59,529 nucleotides of DNA from Candidatus Moraniibacteriota bacterium (lineage in GTDB: Bacteria > Patescibacteriota > Minisyncoccia > Moranbacterales > GWC2-37-73). Under the pieces are notes generated by a model that was given only the letters and a program-made list of their open reading frames with translations, searched no databases and was not told where the DNA came from. The DNA lies in NCBI GenBank assembly GCA_013336225.1, contig JAAXUC010000005.1, positions 1 through 59,529 on the forward strand, written 5' to 3'. How positions within the stretch are numbered: the first letter of the stretch is position 1; every line of letters begins with the position of its first letter. Positions 15,246 through 45,100 of this stretch are shown here, piece after piece. A program made the translations under genes and the position numbers.

Positions 15246-15337
15246 GAATAAACACAGTTGCGCTGCTTTAAAATGTGTTGCCCGCCCAAAATTAAAATAA
15301 ATCTTCATCTCATTGACTCATTAGGGGTTATAAAAAA

Positions 15338-15886: not shown

Positions 15887-15961
15887 TAAATGTTTTGTTA
15901 AACGATAAAAATATAACTGAAAGCTTATTTGAGCAAAGCTCATTTTGATTTTCACTGCTGG

Positions 15962-16531
15962 ATGAAAAAAAAATCAACAATAAAAAATGTTTTATCAAGC
16001 ACCAAAAAGGGATTCTCATTGGTTGAATCCTTGTTGGCAGTTTTCATTTTTTCAATGGTGGCTGTCATGACAGCATCAACATTTTCGGGATTATTGAAAA
16101 ATTATATTGTTGCAAAAAAAATTCAAAGAAATTCAGAGAGTGCTCAATTTGTCATGAACTTGATGGCAAAAACGATTCGCAGCAGCGTGTTGCCAGCTTC
16201 TCCAGTGTCATATCTTAACGTGAATAATATTGCAATGTTTGATAATTCAAGCGCACAATGTGTCATTTATAAATTTGATGCGGGGGTGTTGAAGATGGTT
16301 TCTGCCGGGGCAGCTGATGGCGCAACTGATATTTCCAAGTGTGATGCAGTCACAACTCCGGTCTTGGCTGATTCAAATCTGGTTCCACTCACAAATGCAG
16401 GTGAAATTGATAACATTTCTTTTTCTGGCGTACCTTCATCTGGAGCCGTGGTAGGTCGAATTGTGATAATGGCAAAAGTTGGAGGTAGTGATGCTTCTGA
16501 AATTCAAACTGCTGTTTCGCTGCGAAAGTAG
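15962..16531 (+). CDS. Minor pilin, PilW/GspJ-like
   Basis: A 189-residue prepilin-like protein. The leader is longer than in its neighbours (about 21 residues) and ends TKKG before FSLVESLLAVFIFSMVAVM. The following segment SAQFVMNLMAKTIRSSVLP resembles the PilW/GspJ pattern (xLxxxLRxAl). Two cysteines in the globular domain may pair. I prefer ATG 15962 to the TTG at 15929, which would lengthen the leader to an implausible 32 residues. It is the last gene of the pilus locus and is followed by an intrinsic terminator. Confidence 0.78.
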   Translation: MKKKSTIKNVLSSTKKGFSLVESLLAVFIFSMVAVMTASTFSGLLKNYIVAKKIQRNSESAQFVMNLMAKTIRSSVLPASPVSYLNVNNIAMFDNSSAQCVIYKFDAGVLKMVSAGAADGATDISKCDAVTTPVLADSNLVPLTNAGEIDNISFSGVPSSGAVVGRIVIMAKVGGSDASEIQTAVSLRK

Positions 16532-25138: not shown

Positions 25139-25450
25139 AATTTTTATGAACATGCATTTATGAAAATTAATTTATATCGATAAATAAAAAGTGTACAAAA
25201 GTTTTCACTGTGAAATGAAAAATATTTTTATAAATTGTTATTCTTCTTTCGAGTTTTGTGTGCTGAATTTTGAATTTTGTATTTTGCATTTTGGAACTGT
25301 GGATAACTTTTTATGTTTTTTTATATTTTGCTTTATTTGCGCCAAAAAAAATGAAAAAAAGAATATCGATGATAATTGTAAAAAGTGCAAAAAAATTGTA
25401 TAATTTAGATAGAGAATTTTAATCATTTTTGCTTTGGTAAAAGGAAAAAC
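25139..25450. other. AT-rich upstream region of the first surface cassette
   Basis: No credible gene. It contains inverted ACAAAAT-type repeats (25262-25292), a perfect DnaA-box-like TGTGGATAA at 25298-25306 within the block ACTGTGGATAACTTTTT, a TATAAT at 25399-25404 likely to be the -10 of the following gene, and an AAGGA ribosome site at 25441. The same 17-base block around TGTGGATAA occurs upstream of the second cassette at 57199. Confidence 0.5.
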
Positions 25451-26263
25451 TTGGAAGAAAATAAAGATAAAAAACAGACGGAAATAGTTGAGCTTATTAA
25501 TGATTTCCCTTCCAAAGAAGAAGAGGCGCGACTTGAGCTTGAAAGAAAGCAGATTGAGGCAAATTTTCAAAGGCTGAAAATTCAAAATGAAAAGAGGATT
25601 GCACTGAAAAATAAATTGAAGAAAGTCGCCTTGATTGCTGTGGTTATCGCAGTAATTGGAGCTTTGATTTTTATATTTTTTCAAAACAGGAAAAATGCTG
25701 CCCTAGACACTGCAAAGAAAACTGCTAGTGTTGCCTTGCCTGAAAATTCTGAACATGTTTTCGTGAATGATACTCAAGGTGTTCTTGAACCCGTAGAGGT
25801 TGTGGATGAGACAAGGGGATTGATTGGCAGGAGTGAGAATTTTCAAATAAAAGATTTAGTGTTCGGCGGCGAAACAATGGTGATTGCAGGCGAGACGGAA
25901 AACTTGCCGATTGCTGTGACAGATGTGCGGAGTGAATCATTGATGTCCAAAGATGGTAAGGAAGTGAAGCTGCTTATTTCTTGGAAAACAAATAAGTTGG
26001 CTCAGTCAGCGGTGAAATATCGAAAAGACACCTTGGATTCGGAAAAGATTTTGAAGGAGGGTGGATATGGTTTTTCTCACGCACTTATTTTGGCAAAATT
26101 GGAACCAGCCACAAGATTTTTTTTCACAGTTGAGGCCAGTGATAGGCAGGGAAAAATTGGGGTTTCAGAAACATTCGCGGTGTTTACGGGATCAAAACCT
26201 ATTTCCGTGTTTGATTTGATTGCAAATGAAGTGAATAAGATGTTTGGCTGGGCCCTCAAGTGA
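25451..26263 (+). CDS. Membrane-anchored protein with fibronectin-like domain (cassette copy 1)
   Basis: A 270-residue protein I cannot name. The first 55 residues are charged and probably coiled (EEEARLELERKQIEANFQRL), followed by one membrane helix (about 58-76) and an extracellular part. The outer domain, about 155-250, has the look of a fibronectin type III or purple-acid-phosphatase-like N-terminal domain (VKLLISWKTNKLAQSAVKY, then LILAKLEPATRFFFTVEASD). The last residues, SVFDLIANEVNKMFGWALK, form an amphipathic tail that recurs in the paralogue at 57388. The start is a TTG with AAGGA seven bases upstream. It precedes the giant fibre gene by 24 bases, so the two are surely co-expressed. 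A role in anchoring or exporting the fibre is inference. Confidence 0.65.
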   Translation: MEENKDKKQTEIVELINDFPSKEEEARLELERKQIEANFQRLKIQNEKRIALKNKLKKVALIAVVIAVIGALIFIFFQNRKNAALDTAKKTASVALPENSEHVFVNDTQGVLEPVEVVDETRGLIGRSENFQIKDLVFGGETMVIAGETENLPIAVTDVRSESLMSKDGKEVKLLISWKTNKLAQSAVKYRKDTLDSEKILKEGGYGFSHALILAKLEPATRFFFTVEASDRQGKIGVSETFAVFTGSKPISVFDLIANEVNKMFGWALK

Positions 26264-26287
26264 CGATAAAAAACGATAGCTCAAAAA

Positions 26288-29200
26288 ATGAAAAAAAATA
26301 ATAAAAATATTATAGTATCATTTCTAATTGCTATTTTGGCTGTGGCTGGATTTGGTTTTAACATGTCTTTAGCTGCGGTTGCTCCACAGATCAACATCTC
26401 AGCGTATGTTGTCAGCAGTAAAAATGAAGCCTTGACCAATAAGGAATATGACATTCGTTTTGCCATTTATAGGACTGACAGGCAAGCTGCTGACGCATAT
26501 CCTTCTGACAGTGATGCTGGGCAACGTGTTTGGGAGGAAACGCAAAAAGTTTTCATTCGTGACGGAGTGCTTAGCGCCTATCTTGGATCAGTGGTGCCAT
26601 TTCCGGCTGGTTTGAATTTCAATGACAATGAATATTATCTTGGAATACGCATTAACACTGATGGTGAAATTGTGCCACGAAAAAAAATTGGCAGCGTGCC
26701 ACTTGCCATGGACTCTGCTGCAGTTGGTGGTGCAACACTTGGAACAAAGGAAGGCAACATTGCTCAACTTGGAAAGGGCGGAAAATTTAATATTGGAATG
26801 TTTCCGACTGGAACTGGAAAAAATCAGTTGGTGTTGGGGAACGACTCTCGTTTTGCTGACATGAGTAATATTCATTTGCAAAATTCTGACACTGGTTCGA
26901 GCGAGTTGGTTTTCAATGTTGGTGACGGCAGTTCTCTGGCGGGAAATAATTTTGATCTTGCGGTTGGAAATAGTGGTAATAAGCCGGCGCTGCGATTTGA
27001 TGGCGGGGTTGGTAAATGGCAATATTCCAATGATGGAATAAATTTTATTGCGCTTGGGCAAGGAAACGTGGATGCTTCAGAGATTGTGACTGGAGTTTTG
27101 GGCGCACAATTTGGCGGAACTGGTCTGACAGGTTTTTCGGTAGGTGACATGTTGTTTGCAAATTCCACCACCTCTCTTGGGAAATTGGCAATTGGAAATG
27201 ATGGACAAGTGCTTTCTGTTGTGGGTGGAATTCCAACTTGGGCTGATGTCAGTGGCGCTTCACCGATAAAGCTTTTGTCAGCTCAGCATTTGGACACGAC
27301 TGCTGCAGATGTTCAGCGCGGCGCCATTATTGCTGGACAAGGTGCATCGCCAACTTGGTCATTGCTGGGACCTGGCACGTCAGGACAAATTCTTCGTTCA
27401 AATGGAGTCGGGGCAGATTTGGGCTGGGTGACTCTCTCAAAAAATGATGTTGGATTGGGCAACGTGGAAAATACCGCGCTCTCAACTTGGGTTGGATCGA
27501 CAAATATTTCAACTCTGGGAACAATTACAAATGGAACCTGGAGTGGAACCATGATCAGTGCCGCACGGGGTGGAACTGGAAATGGGACTTATGTGGTGGG
27601 AGATATTTTATATGCAACAAATTCAAACACTCTTTCTCGCTTGGGTGTTGGTATAGTTGGACAAGCCTTAATAGTTTCAGCAGGTGGAACTCCAGTATGG
27701 AGTTCGAGTGTGCCAACTTATCCGCATGATCTTTTGAATTCAACTGAGCATCCAGACACTACAACCGGAGCTGCCACGCGCGGAGATTTGATCGTAGGAA
27801 ACTCTTCGAATCTTTGGGCGAGATTGGGCAAGGGCGCAAGTGGAAACATTCTCACAATGAATGTTAATGACGTTGCTTGGAATTCAGCAGCGGGGCTTGG
27901 ACTGGCAACCTTGGCTGGGTCAGAAAGTTTGACGAACAAAACCATGGGGTCTGGTTCTAATTGGCAGGGAAATGCTGTCATGACAACATATGGCGGAACT
28001 GGAATAGGTGGTGGTTATGTTGCTGGAGATATATTATATTATTCAGCTGGCTCTGCGCTTTCTAGATTAGCTAGAGGTGCCAATGGCACAATTCTTTCGC
28101 TTTCGGGTGGTTTTCCGTCTTGGATTGCGACCACGGGAATCACCACCCTGGGAACAATCACGACTGGAACTTGGAATGGAACCGTGATTGATTTGGCGCA
28201 TGGTGGAACTGGAGCAATTGATGCTGCTGGTGCTCGCATAAATTTGGAACTTGGCGCACTTTCAACACAAAGCATGATTGATAATGGAGACTGGTCTGGC
28301 ACACAATTGGCAGTGGGTAATGGTGGAACAGGTACCACGAATGGTTCAATCACTGGCACGGGGGCACTTTCTTTTGCGGCTGGCGGCGCTAGTAATAATA
28401 TAAATTTGAATCCTACTGGAACCGGCATGGTGGCAGTAAACGCTGCGCTTGGAATTAAAGCTGGAGCGTATAGATCAATTTTTCAAGGCGCTGGAGCGCA
28501 AGGAGCTGACATTACGTACACTTTGCCAGCAGGTGCACCTGGAGATGATCAATTCTTGGGAGTCAATTCAAGCGGAATTTTGCAATGGCAATCGGTAAGT
28601 GGAGTTTCTGGGGTTGGATCAGTGACAAGTGTTGGCAGTGGCAATGGCCTTGCGGGTGGACCGATTACAGGAGCTGGAACACTTTCAATTAATTTGCTTT
28701 CAGCTAATGATGGAACTGCAACAACATCCTCCTTTTCTGGTTTGCAATTTTCTGGAGCTGCTGACAATCAGTTGGCACTTTTGCAAGGTTGCGCAACCAA
28801 TGATGTGCTTGCATGGAATGATATAGCAGGCGAATGGATGTGCGCTTCTGTTTCCGGGGTGGGCGGGCTGACTGGGCTTGGTGTGGCTGGGCAAGTTACA
28901 GTTTGGAGTGATACGGATGTGTTGACGACGCAAGCTCAACTTAATGTTAATCAAGGTGGAACTGGCGCAACCACTGCTGCAAATGCAAGAACAAATTTAG
29001 GTTTATCAATAGGAACTGATGTTCAAGCTCAAAATGCGAATTTGGCAGCAATTGCAGCTGGAACTTGGACTGGCGCAAATTCTTTGACAACTTTGGGCAC
29101 AATTACGACTGGAGCTTGGCATGGAGGAGTGGTTGCGCCATTGTATGGAGGAACCGGCATGAGTAGTTATGCTAATGGTGATTTGTTATATGCCAATGGA

Positions 29201-32200
29201 CCAAATTCTTTGACGACACTTGCTGCAGGCGCTGGAAATATTGGAAATGTTTTGATCGTCAATGGCAGCGGTTTGCCAATCTGGGGTTCCAGTGCGCCAA
29301 CTGCTGCACATACACTTTTAAATGCCTTGGAACATTCTGACACCACTGCTGGCAATCCTTTGCGCGGCGATCTTATTTTTGGAAACAGCAGTGATTTGTG
29401 GTCACGTTTGGCACATGGCGCAACGGGGGACTTGCTAACCTATAATGGAGCTGATGTGGTTTGGAATTCAACCACAAATTTGAATTTGGTGACTTCTGAT
29501 GCAGTACAAACTTTGACCAACAAGACCATGGGAGATGATTCTGATTGGCAAGGAGATGCAATCACAACAACTTATGGAGGCACGGGGTTGATAAGTTTTA
29601 CGGCTGGAGATATGCTGTATTACAATGCTGGCGTCACTTTGAGCAGACTCTTGAAGGGCACCGATGGTCAAGTGTTGGTGATGGCCTCTGGCATTCCAAC
29701 TTGGTCAAGTTCAGCTCCGGGAGCAGCGCACAATTTTCTTTCCAGCTCGCACGCTGACACAACTGCCACTGCGGTCACGCGTGGTGCCATCATTGCTGGA
29801 CAAGGTGCAGCTCCAACTTGGTCACTGCTGGGACCTGGCACAACTGGACAAATGCTTAAATCAAATGGCAATGCCGCGGATCTTTCCTGGGTAACACTTT
29901 CTAAAACAGATATTGGTTTGGGCAATGTGGAAAACACGGCGCTTTCATCTTGGGCTGGCTCATCAAACATTTCAACGCTTGGCACGATAACCAGTGGAAC
30001 CTGGAATGGAACTGCAATGGATATTTCGAGTAACACCAATCTTTCAACAGGTGGAACTTTGGCACAACTTGCTGGAGATGTGATTTCAATCAAAGAAGGA
30101 ACATTGAACACTGGAAAACTGTGCACCTTTATCACTGGCACTGGGTTGGTTTGTGACACTGATTCTGCTTCAGTTGGACATGCTTCACTCACATTTGCTG
30201 GAGCTTATGATTATTTGAGCTTGTCAGGACAACAAATTACTTTAAATCAAATCGATTTGACAACTGACGTTGCTGGATTGTTGCCAACGACGCGTGGTGG
30301 CACTGGTCTTAACACTTCCGCTGCAACAGGAGTTGCAATAGTGGATAGTGGCACATGGTCAATTGCTTCTTCGCTTGGAATCAGTAAAGGTGGCACAAAT
30401 GCAACCGCCATTGGAACTGCAGGCACAGTGGCATATTCATCAGGATCTGCCTATGCATTTTCAGCTTTGGGAACAGCTGGTCAAGCGATGATTTCCGGGG
30501 GAACTGGAGCGCCAACCTGGTTTGCACCCACAGCCGGTTCAATGATTTTTGCAGGAACGAATGGAATTTTGGAGCAAGATAATGCAAATTTATTCTGGAA
30601 TAATACAAATAAATATCTGCGCTTGGGAGCTTCGCCATATTCAATGGGCGTGGACACGACTGATGGTAACAAATTTAAAATTGCAACTGGGGATGGAATT
30701 GCAGGAAGCAGTCAATTCACGATGGACACCAATGGCGTTACTAGTATTGCCAATTTGCAACTTGGCGCGCAATCTTTTGCACAAGATTCTGGCGTGATTG
30801 CTTGGACTGACATGCCAGTGACAAGTGCGGCAACCATTGGAACCAAAGAAAGCTATATTGCCATGCTCGATGGAAATCCGATGCTGACAATCTATGGCGA
30901 ATCTGACGGAGCAGGCGGAATTCAAAATTCAAGAGTGGGAATTGGCACAGCTTCGCCAACCTCACTTTTATCGGTAGGTGCAACATCGCAGTTTCAGGTT
31001 AACAATGCAGGACAAATTTCTACCAGTGGTGGAATAAATTTAACTACCGTTAGCGGCATCGATATTAATTTTTCTGGAGCAGCTGTGGCAGAAATTGGAA
31101 CATCTGGTGCTCAAGACTTTTTTATTAACACTAATAACACTCAAAGAATTGGTATTTTGGCAAATGGCAATGTTGGCATCGGGACGACGGGACCATTATC
31201 AAAATTGAGCATTGGAGATGTCGGAGTCGCCGGTGCTGGCATCTTTAGTATCGGAAACACTTACGGTGTATATGGCCAGAGCCTTGGCGCGGGAAGTTAT
31301 GGTGTCTATGGCTTCAATAATGGTAATGGTATTGGAGGCTACTTTACTTCAGCTCTTGGTTATGCACTCGTTACTGGTATTGGCAACGTCGGAATTGGCG
31401 ATGCAACGCCAGCTTCGCTTTTCACTGTTGGTGCTTCGGATGCTTTTCAAATTAATAATGCTGGGCAAGTCGTGGCTGGAGCATGGAATGGAGCTGTAAT
31501 CGGAAGCCAATATGGCGGCACTGGACTCAACACCTCCGCTGCAACTGGAGTGGCCACAGTTAATTCTGGGACCTGGTCGATTGCTCCATCACTTGGAATT
31601 AGTAAGGGTGGCACAGCTACAAATGTGATTGGAGCACCTGGTTCGATTGCATATTCAACAGGTGATATATATGCTTTTTCATTGTCAGGAACTGCAGGAC
31701 GAGCACTGGTTTCTGGTGGAACTTTTGCGCCGACTTGGTTTGCGCCCACGGCTGGTTCAATGATTTTTGCAGGAACAAATGGAATTTTGGCTCAAGATAA
31801 TGCAAATTTATTTTGGAATAATACAAATAAATATTTGAGACTGGGTGCTTCTCCATATTCAATGGGGGTGGACACGACTGATGGAAATAAATTTAAAATA
31901 TTTCCTGGCGACGGCGTGGCTGGCACAGGCGTGTTTTCAATTGGAACTGATGGTGTGACAAGTATTGCCAGTCTTTCGATGGGAACTCAGGAGTTCCAGC
32001 AAAATTCTGGCATAATAAGCTGGATTGATATGCCAGTGACGAGCGCATCTGCAATAAACACCGTGCATAGTTACACTGCAGGACTCGATGGAAATCCAAT
32101 GTTGACAATGTATGGAAAATCCGATGGCGGCGGCGGAGTGACGAATTTGGGAGTTGGCATTGGCACAACCAGTCCACTTTCTAAATTTGATGTCAATGGC

Positions 32201-33418
32201 AGCGTGGCAATTGGAGCTTATGCGGGAATCGATGCTGCTCCAGTCAATGGTTTGATTGTTTCTGGCAATGTTGGCATCGGAATTACTGCTCCAACATATA
32301 AATTTATGGTGGATTGGAATGGTGACGGAACAAATGCTGCCTATGTCAACAATTCAAATGCTTGGACCAATGGAAGCGCTGATTATGCTGAATATTTCTA
32401 TACCAAAAGTATCGATCTGCAAAGTGGCGACGTGGTTTGTGTGGACACGCAAAATGCAAATGGAGTGAAGCGCTGTGAAAATTCCGGGGATAATAATGTG
32501 ATGGGAATTGTTTCAACTAGTCCATCGGTATTGGGAAATGCACCTGAGGGAAGAGAGAATGATAAGAATTACATAATCACAGCTATGCTTGGTCAGGTTC
32601 CCGGAAAAGTTTCCAGTGAAAATGGAGCAATTCAAATCGGAGATAATTTGACTTCAGCCAGTGCTGGAGGATATATGCGCAAGGCTAATGCGGGAGAAGC
32701 CACGGTGGGAATTGCAATGCAGAATTTTGCTGATGGAAAAGGCATAATCCAGGTTCTCATTTCACGCAGAAATCAAAGTTTGACAGTTGAAAAGGTTGAA
32801 CAGGCGGTGACTGAAAACATTGCCAGCATGAACATTCAAGATCAAGTGACAAACATTGTGAGCGACGCCAAAATTCAATTGGATGCTCAACTCGCAACTC
32901 AAATTTCAGTGTTAGACGCTCTCAAGCAGCAAGTTGCGGACGCAACCACGGTGGCTGGAAAACTTCAAGCCCAAATGGACTTGCTCAAAGAAGAAAATCA
33001 AGCTTTGGTGGATTTCACATTGGCACTTAATTTGAAATCTCTCATATATAAAGATGTTGCTGGCAATCTTGATTTGCTGGATGGAAAATTGACAGCGCAA
33101 GTTGTGGAGTCAGGCAAGCTGGTGATTTCCGTTTTGGATCAAAACGCTCGCACAATTGGTGTTGATTCCATCACTTCAATTAAAAAAGATGACAACGCCG
33201 ATGGCAAAGATGACGACACGACAAGTGATGGCAAAACTTTTTTCGTGAAAACCACCGCAACAAACTCTGCTTCCAAGGTCTTCATCACCCCAAAAGTTGC
33301 ACTTGAGCAGGGGTTGGCGGTGACTGAAATGAGAACCGGCGAAGGATTTGTTGTGACTGTGAAAAATGCGGTCACTGAAGACGTGGCTTTTGACTGGGTG
33401 ATTATGGAAGAGAAATAA
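26288..33418 (+). CDS. Giant secreted fibre-like protein, 2376 residues (cassette copy 1)
   Basis: A signal peptide (about 1-30) precedes a globular head (about 35-155) with WEETQKVFIRDGVLSAYLG and YYLGIRINTDGEIVPRKK, a pattern shared by tail-fibre-like proteins. A very long beta-rich stalk follows, built from GTWNGT...GGTG units and longer repeats (SLLGPGTSGQ..., VTLSKNDVGLGNVENTALS). Two copies of a segment with NANLFWNNTNKYLRLGASPY lie at about 1410-1640 and 1800-2000. Near 2030-2190, SADYAEYF, SGDVVCVDT and VPGKVSSENGAIQIGDNLTS resemble the Peptidase_G2-like autoprocessing or chaperone domain of phage appendages. A coiled coil and a beta domain ending FDWVIMEEK close the protein. It is probably a trimeric surface adhesin; trimerisation and cleavage are inferred. 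Confidence 0.75.
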   Translation: MKKNNKNIIVSFLIAILAVAGFGFNMSLAAVAPQINISAYVVSSKNEALTNKEYDIRFAIYRTDRQAADAYPSDSDAGQRVWEETQKVFIRDGVLSAYLGSVVPFPAGLNFNDNEYYLGIRINTDGEIVPRKKIGSVPLAMDSAAVGGATLGTKEGNIAQLGKGGKFNIGMFPTGTGKNQLVLGNDSRFADMSNIHLQNSDTGSSELVFNVGDGSSLAGNNFDLAVGNSGNKPALRFDGGVGKWQYSNDGINFIALGQGNVDASEIVTGVLGAQFGGTGLTGFSVGDMLFANSTTSLGKLAIGNDGQVLSVVGGIPTWADVSGASPIKLLSAQHLDTTAADVQRGAIIAGQGASPTWSLLGPGTSGQILRSNGVGADLGWVTLSKNDVGLGNVENTALSTWVGSTNISTLGTITNGTWSGTMISAARGGTGNGTYVVGDILYATNSNTLSRLGVGIVGQALIVSAGGTPVWSSSVPTYPHDLLNSTEHPDTTTGAATRGDLIVGNSSNLWARLGKGASGNILTMNVNDVAWNSAAGLGLATLAGSESLTNKTMGSGSNWQGNAVMTTYGGTGIGGGYVAGDILYYSAGSALSRLARGANGTILSLSGGFPSWIATTGITTLGTITTGTWNGTVIDLAHGGTGAIDAAGARINLELGALSTQSMIDNGDWSGTQLAVGNGGTGTTNGSITGTGALSFAAGGASNNINLNPTGTGMVAVNAALGIKAGAYRSIFQGAGAQGADITYTLPAGAPGDDQFLGVNSSGILQWQSVSGVSGVGSVTSVGSGNGLAGGPITGAGTLSINLLSANDGTATTSSFSGLQFSGAADNQLALLQGCATNDVLAWNDIAGEWMCASVSGVGGLTGLGVAGQVTVWSDTDVLTTQAQLNVNQGGTGATTAANARTNLGLSIGTDVQAQNANLAAIAAGTWTGANSLTTLGTITTGAWHGGVVAPLYGGTGMSSYANGDLLYANGPNSLTTLAAGAGNIGNVLIVNGSGLPIWGSSAPTAAHTLLNALEHSDTTAGNPLRGDLIFGNSSDLWSRLAHGATGDLLTYNGADVVWNSTTNLNLVTSDAVQTLTNKTMGDDSDWQGDAITTTYGGTGLISFTAGDMLYYNAGVTLSRLLKGTDGQVLVMASGIPTWSSSAPGAAHNFLSSSHADTTATAVTRGAIIAGQGAAPTWSLLGPGTTGQMLKSNGNAADLSWVTLSKTDIGLGNVENTALSSWAGSSNISTLGTITSGTWNGTAMDISSNTNLSTGGTLAQLAGDVISIKEGTLNTGKLCTFITGTGLVCDTDSASVGHASLTFAGAYDYLSLSGQQITLNQIDLTTDVAGLLPTTRGGTGLNTSAATGVAIVDSGTWSIASSLGISKGGTNATAIGTAGTVAYSSGSAYAFSALGTAGQAMISGGTGAPTWFAPTAGSMIFAGTNGILEQDNANLFWNNTNKYLRLGASPYSMGVDTTDGNKFKIATGDGIAGSSQFTMDTNGVTSIANLQLGAQSFAQDSGVIAWTDMPVTSAATIGTKESYIAMLDGNPMLTIYGESDGAGGIQNSRVGIGTASPTSLLSVGATSQFQVNNAGQISTSGGINLTTVSGIDINFSGAAVAEIGTSGAQDFFINTNNTQRIGILANGNVGIGTTGPLSKLSIGDVGVAGAGIFSIGNTYGVYGQSLGAGSYGVYGFNNGNGIGGYFTSALGYALVTGIGNVGIGDATPASLFTVGASDAFQINNAGQVVAGAWNGAVIGSQYGGTGLNTSAATGVATVNSGTWSIAPSLGISKGGTATNVIGAPGSIAYSTGDIYAFSLSGTAGRALVSGGTFAPTWFAPTAGSMIFAGTNGILAQDNANLFWNNTNKYLRLGASPYSMGVDTTDGNKFKIFPGDGVAGTGVFSIGTDGVTSIASLSMGTQEFQQNSGIISWIDMPVTSASAINTVHSYTAGLDGNPMLTMYGKSDGGGGVTNLGVGIGTTSPLSKFDVNGSVAIGAYAGIDAAPVNGLIVSGNVGIGITAPTYKFMVDWNGDGTNAAYVNNSNAWTNGSADYAEYFYTKSIDLQSGDVVCVDTQNANGVKRCENSGDNNVMGIVSTSPSVLGNAPEGRENDKNYIITAMLGQVPGKVSSENGAIQIGDNLTSASAGGYMRKANAGEATVGIAMQNFADGKGIIQVLISRRNQSLTVEKVEQAVTENIASMNIQDQVTNIVSDAKIQLDAQLATQISVLDALKQQVADATTVAGKLQAQMDLLKEENQALVDFTLALNLKSLIYKDVAGNLDLLDGKLTAQVVESGKLVISVLDQNARTIGVDSITSIKKDDNADGKDDDTTSDGKTFFVKTTATNSASKVFITPKVALEQGLAVTEMRTGEGFVVTVKNAVTEDVAFDWVIMEEK

Positions 33419-33491: not shown

Positions 33492-34013
33492 ATGTATAAG
33501 ATTGAAAATAAAAAAGTGTTTGCGTCATTTGTTGTGGTGATGATTGCCATTACGGGTGGTTTGATTTTTGGGGTTTATAATCTTGTGAAAAAATACAATC
33601 AAGTTCCGACCATCGAAAGAATGACAATTAAAGAAGCAGCAAAAGAAGGAGAGAAAAAAACAGTGCAGCTTTTGATTCAAATTGCTGACATTAAAAATGT
33701 TGAGGGTGTGCTTGAGCGCGGAGATGTGCTTTTGACGGCGGATGAAAACAAAGAATTTTCTGTGGCTGAGCAAGAAGGTTTTTTAATCATCAAGATGAGG
33801 CTCACGCAATCGCAGCAAGAGTTACTAGAACTTTCCTTAAAGGAGCAACAAGGAATCTTTGCTAAGCAAGACGACAGGCAACAACCAAAAGAAATTAAAC
33901 GCAGGAAATTTGCAGTCGACCTTGCAAAAATTGGAATTGGACCAGAGCAAAAAATGGGCAAAGTGATTACAGACAAAGTTTTTGAAGATGATGCATTGAT
34001 TGAAAAGAAATGA
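33492..34013 (+). CDS. Small membrane-anchored protein, coupled to the next gene
   Basis: A 173-residue protein of unknown family. An N-terminal membrane helix (about 9-30, VFASFVVVMIAITGGLIFGVYNL) is followed by a predicted extracellular alpha/beta region rich in Glu, Lys and Gln (IERMTIKEAAKEGEKKTVQL, LTQSQQELLELSLKEQQG). Its stop codon overlaps the ATG of the 1262-residue beta-helix protein (ATGA at 34010-34013), so the two are translationally coupled and probably work together. By analogy with the 25451/26288 pair, it may be a small membrane partner for a large secreted protein. I see no catalytic motif. Confidence 0.6.
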   Translation: MYKIENKKVFASFVVVMIAITGGLIFGVYNLVKKYNQVPTIERMTIKEAAKEGEKKTVQLLIQIADIKNVEGVLERGDVLLTADENKEFSVAEQEGFLIIKMRLTQSQQELLELSLKEQQGIFAKQDDRQQPKEIKRRKFAVDLAKIGIGPEQKMGKVITDKVFEDDALIEKK

Positions 34014-37000
34014 AATTTTTGAAATTTACAACCTATTTCTTTCTGGCTATGCTTTGCATGGTTGTTTTCAGTGCGCAAGCGCAAGCTGCTACTGCAATAT
34101 ATTACAGCGTCGGACAAAATACAACTTCACATGAAACTGACTTAGGCACTGTCACGGTTGATGCCACTGCTAGGACCGCAACTTTCACAGTCCCGCAAAT
34201 TGCAACCAATATGGGAGTGGGAGATTTGGTTACATATGCTGGCGGGAGCTGTTACATTTTTTCAAAAACTTCAACCTCAGTTTGGGGTTGCCAAAATGCA
34301 ACTGGTGGAGCTCCAATTGCTGTTACTGATGCGGAGGTCACTTCAATTGCACATGCATTTGCATCTCTGAACGCTGCAGAAATTGGCGCGCCAGCTTTGC
34401 TGGGAACTGCTGATTTGGTGGTTGGAAATTATCAACTCAATTTTCCTTGCTATTTTGATACTGGAGCTGATACAACTGGTGTTACTATTAGTGCTTATAC
34501 AACATCTGCAAGTAATCATGTCAGGATTTATACTCCAAATAACACTTCAACTGAAGTGAATCTTTCACAAAGGCATGTCGGTGCTTGGGACGAAACAAAA
34601 TATAGCTTGCAAACAACTGGTCGATCCATTGATGCTCTAAATGGGTATGTCAAAGTGGATGGCTTGCAAATGAGGAGAATTGCCAATGATACTTCCTGGG
34701 AAGCTGTCATGTGGATGCGTGGAACTGAGCAACAAGTTTCAAATTCAATTATTACAGCCAGCTTTACTGGTACATCTAGTAATGATTATGGAGTGCTTAA
34801 TAGTGCAGCTAATTTGTTATTTTTTAATAATATTATTTACGGAATTTCCAACGGATTAAATTTACTGACAGCTCTGAATGAGAATAGTGCAGGCAGTATA
34901 TATGTTTACAATAATACTATTACAAATTCATATCGTGGCATCGACGGAAATTCTAATACGATTGCAAAAAATAATATCGTTCAAAATTGCGGCGACGGAT
35001 TCACAGATTCTTTTGATGCCGCATCAAATTATAATATTTCCGATCTGGCAGCTGATGCGCCGGGAATTAATTCAAAAAATTCAACAACTGTTGCTTTTGC
35101 CGACGTTGCCAATAAGAATTTCCATCTTGCACCATTCGACATTGCTGCCAAAAATGCTGGCGCTGATCTTTCGGCTGATGCAAACTTTGCATTTAGCACT
35201 GACATTGATGGTCAAACTCGTCTCGCTGGAATTCCGCCAGCTGGCGGATGGGATATTGGCGCTGACGAAGCTGCTACCCAAGTTTTCTATTCTGTCGGAC
35301 AATCTGCCAGCGACCTTAAAACAGGCACAAATCCGACCATCAACATCATTTCCGGCGCTGCAGTCTTCTCAGAGGCTCAAACAGGTAACATCGGTGTGGG
35401 AGACCGGGTCACATATAACACCAACCAAATCGCATATATCAGCACTAAGACAAGCGCTGACAGGATGCACTGGAGCCTCGTTACCGCCACTGGAGCCCCT
35501 GCAGGCGACATTACAAATTCAGTGGTTGTTTCAATCAAGCATGAGTACACCTCACTTTCAGCTGCTGTGACTGGAGCGATGGATACAGATCATTTGAACA
35601 CTTCGGATTTGGCGATTGGAAATTATCAGCTTAATTTCCCTTGTTATTATGATTCTGGCGCAGACACAGCTACGGTGACAGTTTCTGGTTATGCAACTTC
35701 CGTAGGTAATTATATTAAAATTTATACACCATTCAATACTGCAACTGAAGCCAATAATTCTCAGCGACATCAGGGAAAATGGGATGAGGAGAGATATCGA
35801 CTTGAAGTAACGAATTCAAGAGCCATCACCGGAGTGGCTAATTTTTTCAGATTGGATGGCTTGCAAATCAAAGCTGCTTCGGACAGTTTGACTGCTGGTG
35901 CTACATCGCTCAATGGCGTCCAGCAGACTGATTTCACAGATATTCAAGCTTCAAATAATCTGGTTAATGTTGTGCGAAGTGCTGGGGCGGCTTATACTTA
36001 TGGCATTTCGGCTGGTAGAGCTGCAGGTGTAAGTGCCAATACGATTAAAGTTTGGAACAATATAGTTTTTGGTTCCAGTGGAAGCGCTGGCATTCATTTT
36101 GGTGGCCCAATCGCTTATGTTTATAACAATACAGTGAGTGGCGTGATTGATGGATATTATGCTGACAATGGGAGTCTGATGTATGTTAAAAATAGCATTG
36201 CACAAAATTGTAATCGTGGTTTTTATGGTGCCCATGCTTCATCAAATTATAATATTTCAGATCTTGTCGCTGATGCTCCTGGTGTAAATTCTAAAAATTC
36301 CACCACTGTGACTTTTCTCGATGCTGCCAATAAGGATTTTCATCTTTCTTTTCTTGATACATCAGCAAAAAATGCAGGATTAAATTTGCAAGCTGATCCA
36401 TTCTTGCATTTCTCTCAAGATATTGATGGGCAGGAGCGATCTGGAATTTGGGACATTGGTGCAGATGAAAACATAGAAATGGTGCAGCAAAAACAACTTT
36501 CAACTCCAGGCTTGGATACAGGACTGGTGGGACATTGGACTTTTGATGGCAGTGATGTGAATGGCAATGTCGCTAAAGACATTTCTGGCAACAAAAATGA
36601 CGGCACAATTGCTGGCGCCACAGTGACGCCTGGAAAATTGGGACAAGGGCTGAACTATGTCAGCTTGGGAAGTGTGGTGTCAGTTCCGGATAATGATTCC
36701 CTGGAAGGCATGACTCAATTAACCTTGAGCGCCTGGATTAATCCAAGAACCTCTGGAAATTTTGGACGCATCATTGAAAAAGGCAATGGCACGCCATATA
36801 ATTTTTATTTCATTGGAAGTAATTTGCAGTGCGATCTCGATTCCACTTCGGTGATAACGGCAAGTAATCCTTTTTCAGGTAAATATAACAGTTGGCATTT
36901 GGCGACTTGCGTCTATGATGGAGTAACTGTTGCAATTTATCTTGACGGAGCTTTAATTGCCTCTGCAGCCAGGACTGGATCAGTTGCAACTGGCGCAACC

Positions 37001-37798
37001 GCAGTAACTATTGGCAATAATGACAGCGGAGCTCGCACTTTTGATGGTGTAATTGATGATGCCCGCATCTATAACCGCGCGCTTTCAGGCAGTGAGATTT
37101 CGCAGTTGTATAATCTCGGGCAAACAACTTTTAACACCGCGCAGATAGACAAAAGCACCAACGGACTGATTGGCATGTGGTCATTTGATGGTGCTGATGT
37201 TTCTGGTAATACTGCCTTTGACCGAAGTGGTAATGGCAATAATGGCACAATTGCTGCTGGGCAAACCCCAACAGTCGGAAAAAATGGACAAGCAATAGAT
37301 TTTAATGGCGCAGGCAATGTTGCACTCCCTGCCAGTGCCATCTTGAGACCAACAAACGCTCTCTCGGTGGCTGGATGGATCAAGGCGGATAGCTTGACGC
37401 AATGGGATGCTCTCATTGGAAACACTGACACAGTGTGGCAGAGCGGCATGGGCGTGTTTTATGATGTCAGCAATGGTGGCGAGTTGCAATTTTTTGTTAA
37501 CAGTTATGATAATAATGTTGCTAAAATAAGTTTCAATGATACTCAGAATTGGCATTATTTAGTCGGAACTTGGGATGGAAGTGTGGTGGACATTTATGTA
37601 GATGGTGTAAAAGGAGTTTCAGATACCTATGCTGGAAGTATTGCGTATAATGACGATTTATATATTGGAGCTATTGATTCTCCAAATTCATATTCTTGGG
37701 ATGGAAAATTGGATGAGTTTCGCATGTATAATCGTGGACTCAGTGCTAAAGAAGTTTCTGATTTGTATAATGCAGGCAAGGTTGAAACGAGAAAATAG
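34010..37798 (+). CDS. Secreted beta-helix/LamG protein, 1262 residues
   Basis: A signal peptide of about 27 residues ends AQAQAA. Two modules of about 395 residues follow (28-422 and 423-815). Each opens with YYSVGQ or FYSVGQ and a small beta domain containing GVGDxVTY. It continues with GNYQLNFPCY, IKIYTP and QRHxGxWDE, then a right-handed beta-helix with NNTI/KNNIVQN rungs. It closes with FHL...AKNAGxxL...DIDGQ...WDIGADE, the ending of choice-of-anchor-Q proteins. Two LamG/ConA-like lectin domains complete it (about 838-1040 and 1051-1255), each starting GL(V/I)G and a WxFDG motif and ending in RxYNRxLS. Both domain types commonly bind or cut polysaccharide, but no catalytic residues are recognised. 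It is coupled by ATGA overlap to the membrane protein upstream. Confidence 0.78.
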   Translation: MKFLKFTTYFFLAMLCMVVFSAQAQAATAIYYSVGQNTTSHETDLGTVTVDATARTATFTVPQIATNMGVGDLVTYAGGSCYIFSKTSTSVWGCQNATGGAPIAVTDAEVTSIAHAFASLNAAEIGAPALLGTADLVVGNYQLNFPCYFDTGADTTGVTISAYTTSASNHVRIYTPNNTSTEVNLSQRHVGAWDETKYSLQTTGRSIDALNGYVKVDGLQMRRIANDTSWEAVMWMRGTEQQVSNSIITASFTGTSSNDYGVLNSAANLLFFNNIIYGISNGLNLLTALNENSAGSIYVYNNTITNSYRGIDGNSNTIAKNNIVQNCGDGFTDSFDAASNYNISDLAADAPGINSKNSTTVAFADVANKNFHLAPFDIAAKNAGADLSADANFAFSTDIDGQTRLAGIPPAGGWDIGADEAATQVFYSVGQSASDLKTGTNPTINIISGAAVFSEAQTGNIGVGDRVTYNTNQIAYISTKTSADRMHWSLVTATGAPAGDITNSVVVSIKHEYTSLSAAVTGAMDTDHLNTSDLAIGNYQLNFPCYYDSGADTATVTVSGYATSVGNYIKIYTPFNTATEANNSQRHQGKWDEERYRLEVTNSRAITGVANFFRLDGLQIKAASDSLTAGATSLNGVQQTDFTDIQASNNLVNVVRSAGAAYTYGISAGRAAGVSANTIKVWNNIVFGSSGSAGIHFGGPIAYVYNNTVSGVIDGYYADNGSLMYVKNSIAQNCNRGFYGAHASSNYNISDLVADAPGVNSKNSTTVTFLDAANKDFHLSFLDTSAKNAGLNLQADPFLHFSQDIDGQERSGIWDIGADENIEMVQQKQLSTPGLDTGLVGHWTFDGSDVNGNVAKDISGNKNDGTIAGATVTPGKLGQGLNYVSLGSVVSVPDNDSLEGMTQLTLSAWINPRTSGNFGRIIEKGNGTPYNFYFIGSNLQCDLDSTSVITASNPFSGKYNSWHLATCVYDGVTVAIYLDGALIASAARTGSVATGATAVTIGNNDSGARTFDGVIDDARIYNRALSGSEISQLYNLGQTTFNTAQIDKSTNGLIGMWSFDGADVSGNTAFDRSGNGNNGTIAAGQTPTVGKNGQAIDFNGAGNVALPASAILRPTNALSVAGWIKADSLTQWDALIGNTDTVWQSGMGVFYDVSNGGELQFFVNSYDNNVAKISFNDTQNWHYLVGTWDGSVVDIYVDGVKGVSDTYAGSIAYNDDLYIGAIDSPNSYSWDGKLDEFRMYNRGLSAKEVSDLYNAGKVETRK

Positions 37799-37834
37799 TT
37801 GAGTGTTAAATTGTTTGCTTATTGAGATTTGAGA

Positions 37835-39052
37835 ATGACAAAAACTATGAGAAAAATCACATTAGAAATATTTTTTATTGCCATGATATTTTTTATGCTA
37901 CCTGCTTTTGCAAAGGCTGCGGTTATTTTTGAAGACAATTTCAACTCTCATTCTGATTGGCAGCCCAGACCGCTTGAAAATGATGTGGCACCTGGAGGTG
38001 GTGTCGTTGCTTGCGATTTTGATGAAACGTGCACAGGAGTAAAATCAGTTCCAACTGATTGGACTAATTTCAGAACGACTGGTTGGTGGTGGGGTCCGAA
38101 TTATGAAGACACCATTAGAATAACCAATCAAGCTGATCACAATAACAATGGAAAATCCTTCATTGTATACAATGAAGCAAATAGTGGTGCTTCTGGCGAT
38201 GGCTGGGGAGCTGATGGACTACTGACCAAGTTGTTTGATCAGGATTATCCGGAAATATATGCGCGCGTTTGGCTCAAAACTGATCCCAATTGGAAGTGGG
38301 CGACAAACAATGACATGATGATCAAAATGTTTCGTGTCAAACATTTTGACAGAGTTGGCAGCATTTATACGGGTTTTCCCGCAGGAACATTGGCGCCAAT
38401 TCTTCTTTGGGACATCAAGCATTCCAATTCATGGGGAACCAGGTGGGCAAATGCTTCGCGTTGTGATCCTCAGGAAACTGATTATTATTGCACCACCAGT
38501 GTTCCTGGTGACAATCTTTTTGTTGCGGGAAACATGACCATTGAACCGAATGAGCCAGGCATGCCAGCTGATGGAGAGTGGCATCAATTAGATTTTCACT
38601 TAAAGATGAATACCTACAATTCGGAAACATCTTCTTGGAGTTCTGATGGAATATATCAATTTAGCTATGATGGTGTCAACAGGGAAAATCATAGCAATGT
38701 TTTGTGGAAAAGAACTGGATCAAATGAATCAATCGGTTGGAATGCCTTTGATCTTGGTGGCAATGCTTTCAATTCTTATAATGACAATTGGTCAAATACT
38801 ATTGATTATGCCATTGATGATGTTGTTGTGCGCAGCTCTTACAGGTGGCGCGCAATTCAGCCTGGCATCAATAATCCTCCTTATTCAGCCACAACTTATT
38901 GGGAAAATATCGGACTGGTGGCTGGGCAAATAGAGCAGTGGTATGCCATGGATGATGTGATTGTTTCCACCACTGAAATTCCTGAAAATTATGTGATTGG
39001 TGGAATTGATCTTATTGCTCCAGCTGCACCAACAAACCTCAATGTGACATGA
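37835..39052 (+). CDS. Secreted jelly-roll-like protein, C-terminus apparently cut
   Basis: A 405-residue exported protein. The signal peptide (about 1-26) ends AFAKAA. The mature part starts VIFEDNFNSHSDWQP, the typical opening of ConA-like jelly-roll domains related to polysaccharide lyases and LamG proteins, and is rich in Trp, Asn and Gly, with IYARVWLKTDPNWKW and DGEWHQLDFHLKMN. It ends PAAPTNLNVT and then a stop. That sequence normally forms the first strand of a fibronectin type III domain, so the downstream domains seem to be missing. The ATG at 37835 is chosen over the TTG six bases upstream. It lies 36 bases after the beta-helix/LamG gene, probably in the same operon. Confidence 0.65.
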   Translation: MTKTMRKITLEIFFIAMIFFMLPAFAKAAVIFEDNFNSHSDWQPRPLENDVAPGGGVVACDFDETCTGVKSVPTDWTNFRTTGWWWGPNYEDTIRITNQADHNNNGKSFIVYNEANSGASGDGWGADGLLTKLFDQDYPEIYARVWLKTDPNWKWATNNDMMIKMFRVKHFDRVGSIYTGFPAGTLAPILLWDIKHSNSWGTRWANASRCDPQETDYYCTTSVPGDNLFVAGNMTIEPNEPGMPADGEWHQLDFHLKMNTYNSETSSWSSDGIYQFSYDGVNRENHSNVLWKRTGSNESIGWNAFDLGGNAFNSYNDNWSNTIDYAIDDVVVRSSYRWRAIQPGINNPPYSATTYWENIGLVAGQIEQWYAMDDVIVSTTEIPENYVIGGIDLIAPAAPTNLNVT

Positions 39053-39109: not shown

Positions 39110-42100
39110 ATGGGATTGAATAAATTTCGTAGGTATAAAAAAATACAAATTTGCCTTGTAGCAGCTTTTTTTGCGGTGGGATTTTTTGCATTTTCGAATC
39201 AGGCTCAAGCTGCCACTCCAATTTTCTATTCCGTTGGACAAAACACAACCTCACATGAAACTGGAGCGGGCACAGTCACGGTTGATGCGATTGCCAGAAC
39301 TGCAACTTTTTCAGTGGTGCAAACTGCAGTCAACATGGGAGTGGGCGACCTTGTGACATATACTGGCGGAAGTTGCTATATTTCTGTAAAAAATTCAACC
39401 TCAGTTTGGGGTTGCCAAAGTGCAACTGGCGGAGCTCCAACTGCTGTTACTGATGCGGAGGTCACTTCAATCGCGCATGCATTTGCATCACTTTCTGCAG
39501 CAGTGACTGGCGCCAGTGGTCTTTTAGGCACTTCAGACTTGGTGGCTGGAGATTATCAATTGAATTTTCCTTGTTATTACGACACTGGGGCTGACACAAA
39601 CGCAACTGTTTCAGGATACACAACTGGAGCTTCAAATTATATCAAAATTTATACTCCAAACAACATTTTGACAGAAGTGAACAGCTCACAACGTCATTCT
39701 GGAAAATGGAATGATGGAAAATACAAGATTACAGTTGGGGATAATAATAATTTTGGCATCCAATTGGTGGTCAATTTCGTGCGTCTTGAGGGGATTCAGA
39801 TTTCCAAAACAAATTCTTCATTTAGTGGTGGAGGTGGGGTGTTGTTTGATGTTTTTGGCGACATCAGAATCAGTGACAATATCTTGAAAGGCATCTCTAC
39901 TGGAGTGTATTCTTCAACTGCCATAAGAACATCGCCAGCTGGAGCTCAAAATGTTGGCGCCATTTCAATCTGGAACAATTTGTTGCAGGATTTTAAACCC
40001 AACAGTGGCGTAGGCGGGAACACGACAGTTGTGTTTGGTTTTTTGAGTGGCAGCACAGGACGAGTCAATCTCTATAACAACACGATTGCAAACTGCAAAT
40101 TAGGTTTTGATATTACAGTTGGATTGGCTGTGGCGAAAAACAACTTGTTCAGTGGTTGCACTAATGATTTCTATACCAATCAGATTTATGCTGCAGGTAG
40201 TGATTATAATGTGACCACGAATGCCACCCTGGGATATGCGGTGACTGGCGCAGGAAACACCCATGACAAACTTTCTCAAAGTCCTGTTTTTGTGGATGCT
40301 GCCAATAAAGATTTCCATCTTTCCACTTTGGATATGGCAGCTAGAAATTCAGGAATCGATCTTTCAGCTGACGCCAGTTTGGCTTTCAACGAGGATGTTG
40401 ATTTTCAAAGTCGGCATAGCGTGTGGGATGTGGGGGCTGATGAAACAGTCACCCCAGTGTATTATTCAGTCGGACAATCCGCGGCTGACCTTAAAACAGG
40501 CTCTCCAAACATCACAACCCTTACTGCAGGTGCTGCAATTCTCTCAGAGGCTCAAACAGGTAACATCGGTGTGGGAGACCGGGTCACATATAATGGAGGC
40601 CAAATCGCATATATCAGCGCCAAGACGAATGCTGACGGCATGCACTGGAGCCTCGTGACGGCCACAGGAGACGTTCCAACTGATGTTTCTGGAGCGACGG
40701 TGGATTCAATCAAGCATGAATATACCTCACTTTCAGCTGCTGTGACGGGAGCAATGGATGTGAATCATCTGAAAACTGCCGACTTGATCGCTGGAAATTA
40801 TCAGCTCAATTTGCCTTGCTATTATGACATTGGCGCAGACCCAGATGCGGTGACAGTTTCTGGTTATACAACCAGTGCGAACAGCTATATTAAAATTTAT
40901 ACGCCTAATAATATTTCGACTGAAGCTAATAATTCTCAGCGGCATCAAGGGAAATGGGATAGTGGAAAATATCAATTGATTGTTAATAATAATCATGGCA
41001 TAAGTGAGCAGTTGGGAAATGTGTGGATTGATGGTTTGCAAATTCAACTCACCAACGTGACATCTAATCTTATGGGCATTTATGTCACAGGATCACTGGG
41101 CGCCAATGCCAATGTGAAAATTTCAGATAATATTTTGAAAGGTGCTGTTTCCACGGCTGACTGGCATATGGGAATAGATATTTGGAATTCTTCCGGATCG
41201 GGGGTGATAAAAATCTGGAACAATGTCATCTATGATTTCAAAAGAACATCAGGCAATAATGCTGTCGGCATAGGAATTGAAGATTCCTACACCTACTATA
41301 TATATAACAACACTGTTTATAATTGCGGAGTGGGTATAAATAAATGGGGCGGTACTGCAATTTTGAAAAACAATTTAGTGCAGAACACTGGCGGAAATAA
41401 TTATGGTGGAACTTTTGATGCCACTTCAAGCAATAATGTTTCTCAAGATGCAACTGCGCCTGGAACAAATTCAAAAATAAGCACTGCTGTTTCTTTTGCT
41501 GATGTGCTGAATAAAGATTTTCATCTAAATCCTTTTGACATTGCTGCCAAAAATGCTGGTGTTGATCTTTCGGTTGATGTTGGGCTTGCTTTTAATTCTG
41601 ACGTCGAGGGACAAGTGCGGCCTTCAAGTTCAAATGCAACTTGGGATATTGGCGCGGACGAAGCTGCCACGGCAATTTTCTATTCCGTCGGGCAAAACAC
41701 CACTGATCACAAAATTTGCACAAACGGTGATTGCATCACTAATCCTTTGACAGTGAGTATTGTCGGTACCACTGGCGTTGCAACTTTTTCCGTGGCGCAA
41801 ACTGCCAACAATTTGGGAGTAGGAGATAAGGTGACATATAACACAACTGAGGTTGCATATATTTCCGAAAAAATTTCAACCTCACAGTGGAAATTGATCA
41901 CAGCCTCTGGCGCAATTCCTGCTGATGTCACTGCGCAAACCGTCAACTCAATTGCGCATGCATTTGCATCCTTGAGTGCTGCCGAAGCTGGTGCGCCAGC
42001 CTTGTTGGGAACTGCTGATTTGGTGACTGGAAATTTTCAACTGAATTTCCCTTGCTATTATGACTCTGGCGCCGACACAACTGCTGTGACTGTGGATGGT

Positions 42101-45100
42101 TATGTTACAGGCGTTTCAAATTATATTAAAATTTATACGCCTAACAATGTTGGCACAGAAGTTAATCTCACCCAAAGACATTCTGGCAGATGGGATGAGG
42201 TGAGATATAATCTCATGATAAATGCGGTTGGAGATTATACTAATGCTCTTTATTTGCGTAGTGATTACACGAAAATTGATGGTTTGCAAATAAAGGTTAG
42301 CAATAATGATTTTGATGGCATAAGAGGAGTCTTGGTTGGATGGAATGATTTGGGGCGTGGATCAACTGTCCATGTTTCAAATAATATTATCACCGAAAAT
42401 CACACAACAACTAATAATGATGGGTTTGAAGCATTAAGCATTCGCAGCACAACAACCACTGGATATATTTGGAATAACTTGATTTATGATGCGAATATAG
42501 GAGGGAATACGGGATCTTCAGCCATGATGCTCTATTATAATCATCATTATGTTTATAATAACGTGGTGTATAATTATACTTCTGGCTATGGTATTCGTTC
42601 CAATGCTGGCAGTGTGCTGGCCAAAAATAACATTGTGCAGCAAGCGAGTTTTAATGGAGCTTTTGATGCTGCTTCAAGCAATAACATTTCTCAAGATGCA
42701 ACTTCGCCAAATGTGGCTTTGCAGAACAAGACAGTGTCTTTTCTTGATGCTGCCAATAAAGATTTTCATCTTGCACCCTCTGACACTACTGCTAAAAATG
42801 CTGGCGCCGATCTTTCTGCTGATCCAAGCTTTGCATTCAGCGCTGACATTGATGGACAGATTCGCTCAGCATCGCCGGGTTGGGACATTGGAGCTGACGA
42901 AGCTGCTACCGCAATTTTCTATTCCGTTGGACAAAACACGAATGATCATTCAAGTGGTGGAAATGTTTCCATTGCATCAGGAATTGCAACTTTCACCGTG
43001 GCTCAAACCGCCACCAATCTTGGAGTTGGAGATAAATTGATTGCAGGTAGCAATACATATTTTTTGGCTTCAAAAATAGACACCACTCACTGGAAGGTGG
43101 TGAATAATCTTGGGGCAGTTCCTGCTGATTCATCTTCGACGGCAGTCACTTCAATTGCACATGTGTTTTCCTCATTGAACTCAGCAGCCACCACTGCCAA
43201 TGGAGCCAGCTATCTCAACACCAGCAATTTGTATACCGGAAATTATCAATTGAATTTGCCTTGCTATTATGATTCTGGAGCAGACACGACGCAAGTGTCC
43301 TTGAATGCATGGCAAACTGCTCAAGGCAATATGATCAAGATTTATACACCCACCAACACTGCAACGGAGGTGAATGTGAGTCAGAGACACTCTGGCAAAT
43401 GGGATGATGGAAAATATAGATTGATCGTGTCAGCAACTGCTGATTATTCAAGAGCTATTCTTTTTGATAGGGGCTATGTCTGGATTGATGGTTTGCAAAT
43501 AAAATCCAGTAATAATGATTATGGATATTCTGCTGGCATCTTGGTGAATTATGCGAGTGCAAATCTTGGTCAAAAAGTGTATATCTCAAACAATATTATT
43601 ACCGAAAATCATGTAACTACTAACAATGACGGATTTGACGCAATTAATCTGTATTATGCAACTGGCTATGTTTGGAATAATTTGATCTATGATACAAATA
43701 TTGGAGGCGGCACTAACAACTCAGCGATCATGGGTTATTATAATCATCACTATGTTTATAATAATGTGATATATAATCGTGTTGGTTATGGTATTCGTTC
43801 TAATGATGGCAGCGTGCTGGCCAAAAATAACATTGTTCAACAAGCAAACTTTGATGGAACTTTTAACGCTGCTTCTAGTAATAATATTTCTCAAAATACA
43901 AGTTCACCCAATGTAGCTTTACGAAACAAAACCGTTACTTTTGCTGATGCTGCGAACAAGGATTTCCATCTTGCATCATCAGACATTGTTGCCAAAAATG
44001 CTGGCGCAGATCTTTCGGCTGATGCCAACTTTGCATTTGCAACTGACATCGACGGTCAAGCTCGTCTCGCTGGAACTCCGCCAGCTGGCGGATGGGATAT
44101 TGGTGCTGACGAAGCAGCTACGGCAGTATATTATTCAGTCGGACAATCTGTGGCAAATTTGATGTCTGGAACACCTCGAATATCAATTGCTGGTGGTGCT
44201 GCAGTTATTTCAGTAGCTCAAACAGGCAACATTGGTGTAGGAGACCGGGTCACATATAACACCAACCAAATCGCATATATCAGTGCCAAGACGAATGCTG
44301 ATGGCATGCACTGGAGCCTCGTGACGGCTACTGGAGATTTTCCAGATGATGTCAGTATGGCATTGGTGGATTCAATCAAACATGAATTTACCAATCTTTC
44401 AACTGCTGTGACTGGAGCGATGAATCCAAGTCACTTGAACACAAATGATTTGATGGCTGGAAATTTCCAACTCAATTTGCCTTGCTACTATGACTCTGGC
44501 GCTGACACTGCTGCCGTGTCAGTTTCAGGCTACAATACTGCTGTTGCAAATTACATTAAAATTTACACGCCAAATAATATTTTGACTGAAGCAAACAATT
44601 CTCAGAGGCATCAGGGGAAATGGGATGATGGGAAATATCAAATTCAAATTACAAATGGTGCTCCGCTGACTGTTGCTGAAAATTATTCAAAAATAGAAGG
44701 GCTGCAAATCAAGCACGTTCTAGCTGGTACCTCTGGTTGGGGATATGTTATGTATTTGGATACGGTCGCTGGTAAATTGTCCATCAGCAATAATATTATC
44801 ACTGCTGATATAGCAGGGGTTCCGACTGCCAACTCGCTTAATGTCGCGGGTATTCGTGGCTGCAAAGGTGATGATTCCAGTATGCCAAATTATATTTATA
44901 ATAATATCATTTATGGCGTGAAGGGGATGAGTACAGCTGCTGGAATTGAGCTTAGTTGTGGTGGAAATGGCAATTCATCATATGTGTATAACAACACATT
45001 GCATGACAATAAAGTTGGAATATTGCTGAGTTACGGCGAACATTTTTTGAAAAACAATTTAATGAATGGAAATGGGACTGACTTCATTGAAATGAATAGT

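Follow-up and report, generated by a model that had tools for sequence, protein, structure and literature searches.

A small membrane protein paired with a giant secreted fibre in Moranbacterales, and its probable kinship in function with membrane-tethered regulators

Transmembrane transcription regulators are widespread (PMC10269533); the main text of that survey mentions neither FN3 as an outer domain, nor HTH_17, nor Patescibacteria. Two-gene co-component systems are also known, ToxR/ToxS and VtrA/VtrC being examples (PMC9214523). Here we describe a two-gene cassette, encoding a small membrane protein and a giant secreted fibre, that is present twice in the first 59,529 bases (the window, meaning the whole stretch of DNA analysed) of a 96.6-kb contig, JAAXUC010000005.1, from a Candidatus Moraniibacteriota bacterium whose genome (G000) is 1.11 Mb in size and estimated to be 100% complete. 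The cassette was followed through 113 genomes of the order, from families that include f1, f7, f8 and f11, and through 23 loci from a scan of GTDB contigs that partly overlaps with the 113-genome set; the assemblies are drafts, with contig ends close to many loci. With a probability of roughly 0.62, we consider the small protein to be the dedicated membrane partner of the fibre, as anchor or sensor, and in relatives that carry a winged helix-turn-helix (wHTH) domain also to regulate, while tethered to the membrane, the operon that encodes it.

The likeness to ToxR/CadC-like regulators concerns only these wHTH-bearing relatives, in which an N-terminal cytoplasmic DNA-binding-like domain, one transmembrane (TM) segment and an outer domain are combined with an operator-like site at the gene itself. 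In contrast to the ToxR/CadC-like proteins, the outer part joins an FN3 domain to an amphipathic helix and has a giant fibre for a partner; in some relatives the wHTH is on the fibre itself, and the helix-turn-helix is of a diverged HTH_17/MerR-like type. With ToxR/ToxS and VtrA/VtrC the system shares an arrangement, and no demonstrated homology, of adjacent genes of which one has a membrane-tethered DNA-binding domain and the other acts outside the membrane, but the second protein is here a giant secreted fibre and there a small lipocalin-like sensor.

Both cassettes lie on the forward strand. The first consists of small protein 1 (positions 25451 to 26263; 270 aa, TTG start), which has a charged cytoplasmic N-terminus, one TM segment predicted from the hydrophobic stretch KKVALIAVVIAVIGALIFIFF (25607 to 25681), an extracellular FN3 domain and an amphipathic C-terminal helix, and of fibre 1 (26288 to 33418; 2376 aa), which has a signal peptide, a head, GGTG and GNVGIGT repeats, a coiled coil and a C-terminal domain ending AFDWVIMEEK. 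In the second, small protein 2 (57388 to 58032; 214 aa), homologous to small protein 1 and likewise composed of TM, FN3 and tail, is followed by the N-terminal part of fibre 2 (58101 to 59529), the open frame of which runs beyond the window, passes over a short N gap and extends as far as about C23:64158. At its C-terminal end fibre 2 has an S74 chaperone, then a coiled coil, then a domain like that of fibre 1, ending VDWWIVQEN. Small proteins 1 and 2 share 40% identity over 210 aa (E 4e-45), and the fibres align over their head regions (E 3e-73; the head alone is 53% identical). The open reading frames and these similarities bear out a preliminary description, made from the DNA letters alone, of two homologous pairs in the same order with intergenic gaps of 24 and 68 bases, and the tail SVFDLIA.E....MF.WA.K that it reported is common to both small proteins.

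Of the 113 genomes of the order, 57 encode stand-alone small proteins, 59 in all. For 44 of the 59 a fibre head is encoded on the same strand, no more than 3 kb downstream, and for 33 of the 44 the distance is at most 224 bp. Counted by genome, 54 have both partners, three the small protein only, four a strong head only and 52 neither; a family-stratified Cochran-Mantel-Haenszel test for co-occurrence gave a common odds ratio near 280 with a p value of 3e-12 that is indicative, as kinship within families partly remains; the counts were made by hand. The co-occurrence with a downstream head-fibre that the preliminary description had proposed as a check is thereby observed; its statement that the small protein always comes first holds in all linked cases, but linkage itself extends to only 44 of 59. 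In the GTDB scan 22 of the 23 loci encode a stand-alone small protein and 18 of these 22 continue with a head-fibre, at L114 with a small gene between; the exceptions are L101 and L109, where none follows, and L098 and L111, which show none before their short contigs end. Both genes are kept though unlinked in G055, G086, G021, G072, G045, G079, G088, G100, G004, G002 and G038.

The gene order in the window's family, often gyrB, in some cases an MscS-like gene, then small protein and fibre, raises the question of whether the small protein is simply one more FN3 surface protein and the adjacency an inherited gyrB-locus synteny without function. Several family-f1 genomes do have the pair behind gyrB, sometimes with the MscS-like gene between, but the pair recurs in other contexts (parAB-like and ABC-permease loci), the two genes are kept also where they are unlinked, and in related genomes they are absent as a pair, so that we find this explanation improbable. 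Because adjacency and co-retention are strong across families of the order, the sequence data support the view that small protein and fibre form a conserved functional pair.

The outer domain of small protein 1 (25898 to 26200) was assigned to FN3 by sequence comparison and through the AlphaFold model of a homologue, from locus L107, which matches FN3 domains in the PDB with E values of about 1e-4 (Foldseek); Pfam gave weak matches to Pur_ac_phosph_N and fn3, the latter below its cut-off. This agrees with the FN3-like outer domain named in the preliminary description. One fold match of the FN3 region, PDB 7cg5, is to an RsgI-type anti-sigma sensor, which also has an extracellular sensor domain tied to gene control; sequence homology to the RsgI type is lacking, and the mechanism there is an anti-sigma one, whereas in the wHTH-bearing relatives it would be a direct one through the wHTH.

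The C-terminal tails, ISVFDLIANEVNKMFGWALK in small protein 1 (26201 to 26260) and SVFDLIAKEFSGMFAWASK in small protein 2 (57973 to 58029), are 19-20 residues long, with hydrophobic moments of 0.41-0.47 against a shuffle mean near 0.2; the value of 0.47 for small protein 1 was reached by 0.5% of shuffles. The tail is amphipathic and, with F and W invariant, one of the regions of the small protein that are conserved best; a signal specific for docking or secretion of the fibre might look like this, and such a contact had been proposed. However, within the same genome the same FN3 domain and tail end a 362-aa protein (contig 7) and two giants with open frames of 3,310 and 2,593 aa (contig 21). 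In the family many FN3 proteins of 1,400-4,100 aa end in this way, including those of G008, G011, G012 and G015, genomes in which the head-fibre is lacking; a tail of similar kind is seen on a giant from Berkelbacteria. We accordingly dropped the tail as a fibre-specific motif and regard a dedicated docking signal as unlikely. Because the FN3 domain and tail are found on giants and on the 362-aa protein, also where there is no head-fibre, the role of the tail would be a more general one, such as contact with the surface or membrane.

The conserved head region of the fibres (26387 to 27064 in fibre 1, 58224 to 58937 in fibre 2) was defined by comparison of heads, and in fibre 1 a beta-rich core is predicted at a pLDDT (predicted local distance difference test) of 80-95. 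A fold search of the head against the PDB gave no match at E ≤ 0.001, the best being a phage tail tip (9d93, E 0.015), and a search against PDB sequences found no relative of it. Near its C-terminus fibre 2 matches PF13884 (Peptidase_S74; E 1.5e-14, 54.5 bits against a cut-off of 22); a Pfam search with fibre 1 at E 0.1 returned no match, S74 included, and fibre 1 matches phrog_30390 in PHROG (E 2.6e-22). In its S74 domain and its tail-fibre-like repeats fibre 2 resembles tail fibres with an S74 intramolecular chaperone, but it is cellular, with a Sec-type signal peptide and a head domain of its own, and its S74 domain precedes a long coiled coil and a further domain. On the strength of the S74 and PHROG tail-fibre matches the fibre might be taken for a phage tail fibre from a prophage. 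The signal peptide, the housekeeping neighbours (gyrB, ligA and type IV pilus genes), the lineage-wide distribution and the lack of phage structural genes among the window's open reading frames read, or at any locus read, make this very improbable. No match to either the small protein or the fibre was found in NCBIfam, nor did a search of an open-access library, outside which most subscription papers lie, find a description of the cassette or of a wHTH paired with or fused to a fibre. What was advanced as an undescribed fibre-display pair stands as a conserved functional pair with no description in the papers searched; the tail as its docking element does not.

At six loci of the GTDB scan (L105-L108, L110 and L115) the small protein has an extra N-terminal part with a stretch of the type IPLSEAAKLSGYTPEYLNxLxRQGKLKAKKIGRNWHTT, which belongs to a wHTH domain. 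The same N-terminal fusion occurs in seven f7/f8 genomes; the six loci and seven genomes overlap in species and are not independent samples. In the AlphaFold model of the L107 protein, made from an alignment of 24 family members, the wHTH (residues 17-85, pLDDT about 95) is followed by a TM helix (125-158), the FN3 domain (235-324, about 95) and a C-terminal helix (332-349, about 79), so that the predicted structure has a cytoplasmic wHTH fold before the TM segment, as in one-component regulators. In family f11 the wHTH stands at the N-terminus of the fibre itself, before a TM segment and the head. Separate genes for wHTH-TM proteins of 120-180 aa lie in front of other head-bearing fibres, with 1-160 bp between (L137-L144, L158). 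As a module, the wHTH moves between the partners: one clade has it on the small protein, another on the fibre. The f11 fusion is Rosetta-stone evidence, at the level of gene architecture, that membrane-tethered wHTH and fibre head would act together, and because wHTH and TM occur fused directly to the fibre head, we propose that the partner, where unfused, acts at the base of the fibre. With a DNA-binding domain on the fibre or on its membrane partner, the pair has the look of a fibre connected to the regulation of the gene that encodes it.

Outside the order, the wHTH is found at the N-terminus of giants of 2,500-6,500 aa that have one TM segment early in the chain and repeats of the GNVGIGT type (L153, L154, L156, L157), and L155 has the same layout without such repeats. 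Class-wide, giants of about 1,250 to 6,456 aa (L153-L157, L161-L163; some cut by the end of the stretch; several with GNVGIGT-type repeats) start with a wHTH domain, in some cases two, and one TM segment, possibly a general architecture in Patescibacteria. A wHTH of the same type was also seen at the C-terminus of a Fic-like protein (L147, 3-824).

The palindrome TTTGATATCAAA lies close to the start of all six wHTH-FN3 genes of the GTDB scan; L110 has the variant TTTGATCAAA at the start and the full site at -105, and at most of the six genes another copy is present 250-440 bp farther upstream. The seven wHTH-FN3 genomes together have 16 distinct sites with the pattern ATTTGATATCAAA, and 13 of these fall in the stretch of about 600 bp that precedes the wHTH-FN3 gene. 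Two sites per locus are usual, and three genomes have one further site each elsewhere. The reversed pattern, used as a control, gave 0 sites in the seven genomes, and four genomes without the wHTH-FN3 form had one ATTTGATATCAAA site in total. This is the pattern that an autoregulated gene would show. As predicted target DNA for the wHTH domain, taken as residues 1-90 of the L107 protein, ATTTGATATCAAAT and ATATTTGATATCAAATAT are candidates. Together with the palindrome, the wHTH module, which the preliminary description had missed, points to a putative regulatory as well as anchoring role. It is conceivable that the wHTH instead serves to tie the base of the fibre to the nucleoid or to some other protein of the cytoplasm; it is fused to very large surface proteins, sometimes in two copies, and is only weakly similar to known DNA-binding families. 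A tether of this kind sits poorly with a palindrome that is nearly confined to the front of the wHTH-FN3 gene and usually doubled there, and we give it little weight beside a regulator.

A GATAT core is enriched before all wHTH genes over shuffles, modestly so (p 0.003 against small genes without wHTH); as a general operator for all wHTH genes it was dropped, the enrichment being modest and no clear palindrome being present before the f11 or class-wide giant genes. The element CTGTGGATAACTT, which contains a perfect DnaA box, was located by a pattern count over the genome upstream of cassette 1 (25297 to 25309) and of cassette 2 (57200 to 57212), on the forward strand in both cases. It occurs also upstream of many relatives, often before a TATAAT box. 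With six copies in the 1.11-Mb genome, of which two are at the cassettes, and 13 in G042, it was ruled out as a cassette-specific element.

Several observations weigh against the small protein as dedicated partner and tethered regulator. The palindrome is absent from the window's genome, where a wHTH profile also found no match; both small proteins of the window are without a wHTH, and so without the cytoplasmic DNA-binding domain of a one-component regulator. Matches of the wHTH to HTH_17 in Pfam are weak (best E 0.0046), and its profile retrieved no relative or other meaningful match among PDB sequences. Three genomes (G009, G046 and G073) have the small protein without a strong head, and the FN3 domain and tail exist without a fibre, as described above. 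A phylogeny of FN3 domains did not separate a wHTH loss in the window's family from a gain elsewhere.

The arrangement we favour would have the small protein bitopic, with its N-terminus inside, one TM helix, and the FN3 domain and amphipathic helix outside; the secreted, phage-tail-fibre-like fibre would have it at its base as membrane partner, probably in physical contact. In the wHTH-bearing relatives the tethered wHTH would bind the palindrome at its own promoter from the cytoplasmic side, and the state of the surface fibre would be carried across the membrane to expression of the fibre operon, activating or repressing it, in the manner of a ToxR/CadC-like one-component system. In the window's genus only the outside part would be present. 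The window's small proteins are most likely an anchor or adaptor for the fibre head, a role that is the likelier there because wHTH and palindrome are absent.

Upstream of both cassettes is a type IV pilus cluster (window 4611-16531) with PilM/N/O-, PilB-, PilT- and PilC-like genes, a prepilin peptidase and several prepilins. Two giants with repeated parallel-beta-helix-like units and tandem LamG domains at the end (Pfam was searched with the first of them) occupy 34010-37798 and 39110-47953. A polytopic membrane protein with C-terminal tetratricopeptide repeats, O-antigen-ligase-like in appearance (window 48088-50688; L009 7236-9809; also L131, L128, L100/L078 and L108), adjoins the small protein or the fibre in several genomes and is possibly a glycosylation partner. 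The cytoplasmic motif F.SY..LK..QKK.RR stands N-terminally, just before a TM segment, in several surface proteins whose outer parts differ (L012 772-1860, L013 2252-, window 55583-57031). At L009 9944-19632 (C23:66943-76631) are six tandem secreted IPT/lectin-like genes, nearly all of which have PSAPSGLSVL, or something very close to it, before the stop codon, at the point at which an FN3 domain would start. The final codons with the stop read TTAAGCGTGCTATAAT, so that the gene end may serve at the same time as -10 box for the gene that follows. A similar ending, APAAPTNLNVT and stop, is found at window 37829-39052. Near FN3 giants lies a conserved cluster (L079 3163-10402, L080 158-10957, L093 8461-15132) with surface genes that resemble the WxL/DUF916 type and QKAGTYTGTVLYTATTN endings.

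Most Patescibacteria have not been brought into culture and are presumed to live on other cells, and to our knowledge contact sensing and the control of large surface proteins in them are largely unknown. We put forward tentatively, and at somewhat less than even odds, that a large class of Patescibacteria connects giant surface fibres directly to the chromosome: a cytoplasmic wHTH would be joined by one membrane helix, covalently or through a small partner, to a giant extracellular fibre, and at the operator of that fibre the DNA-binding domain would read contact or assembly outside. The cassette of the window would then be a wHTH-less form. A membrane protein and giant fibre that are conserved as a pair, with a DNA-binding domain moving between them and a palindrome of its own, would make a contact-sensing hypothesis directly testable in vitro and in reporter strains.

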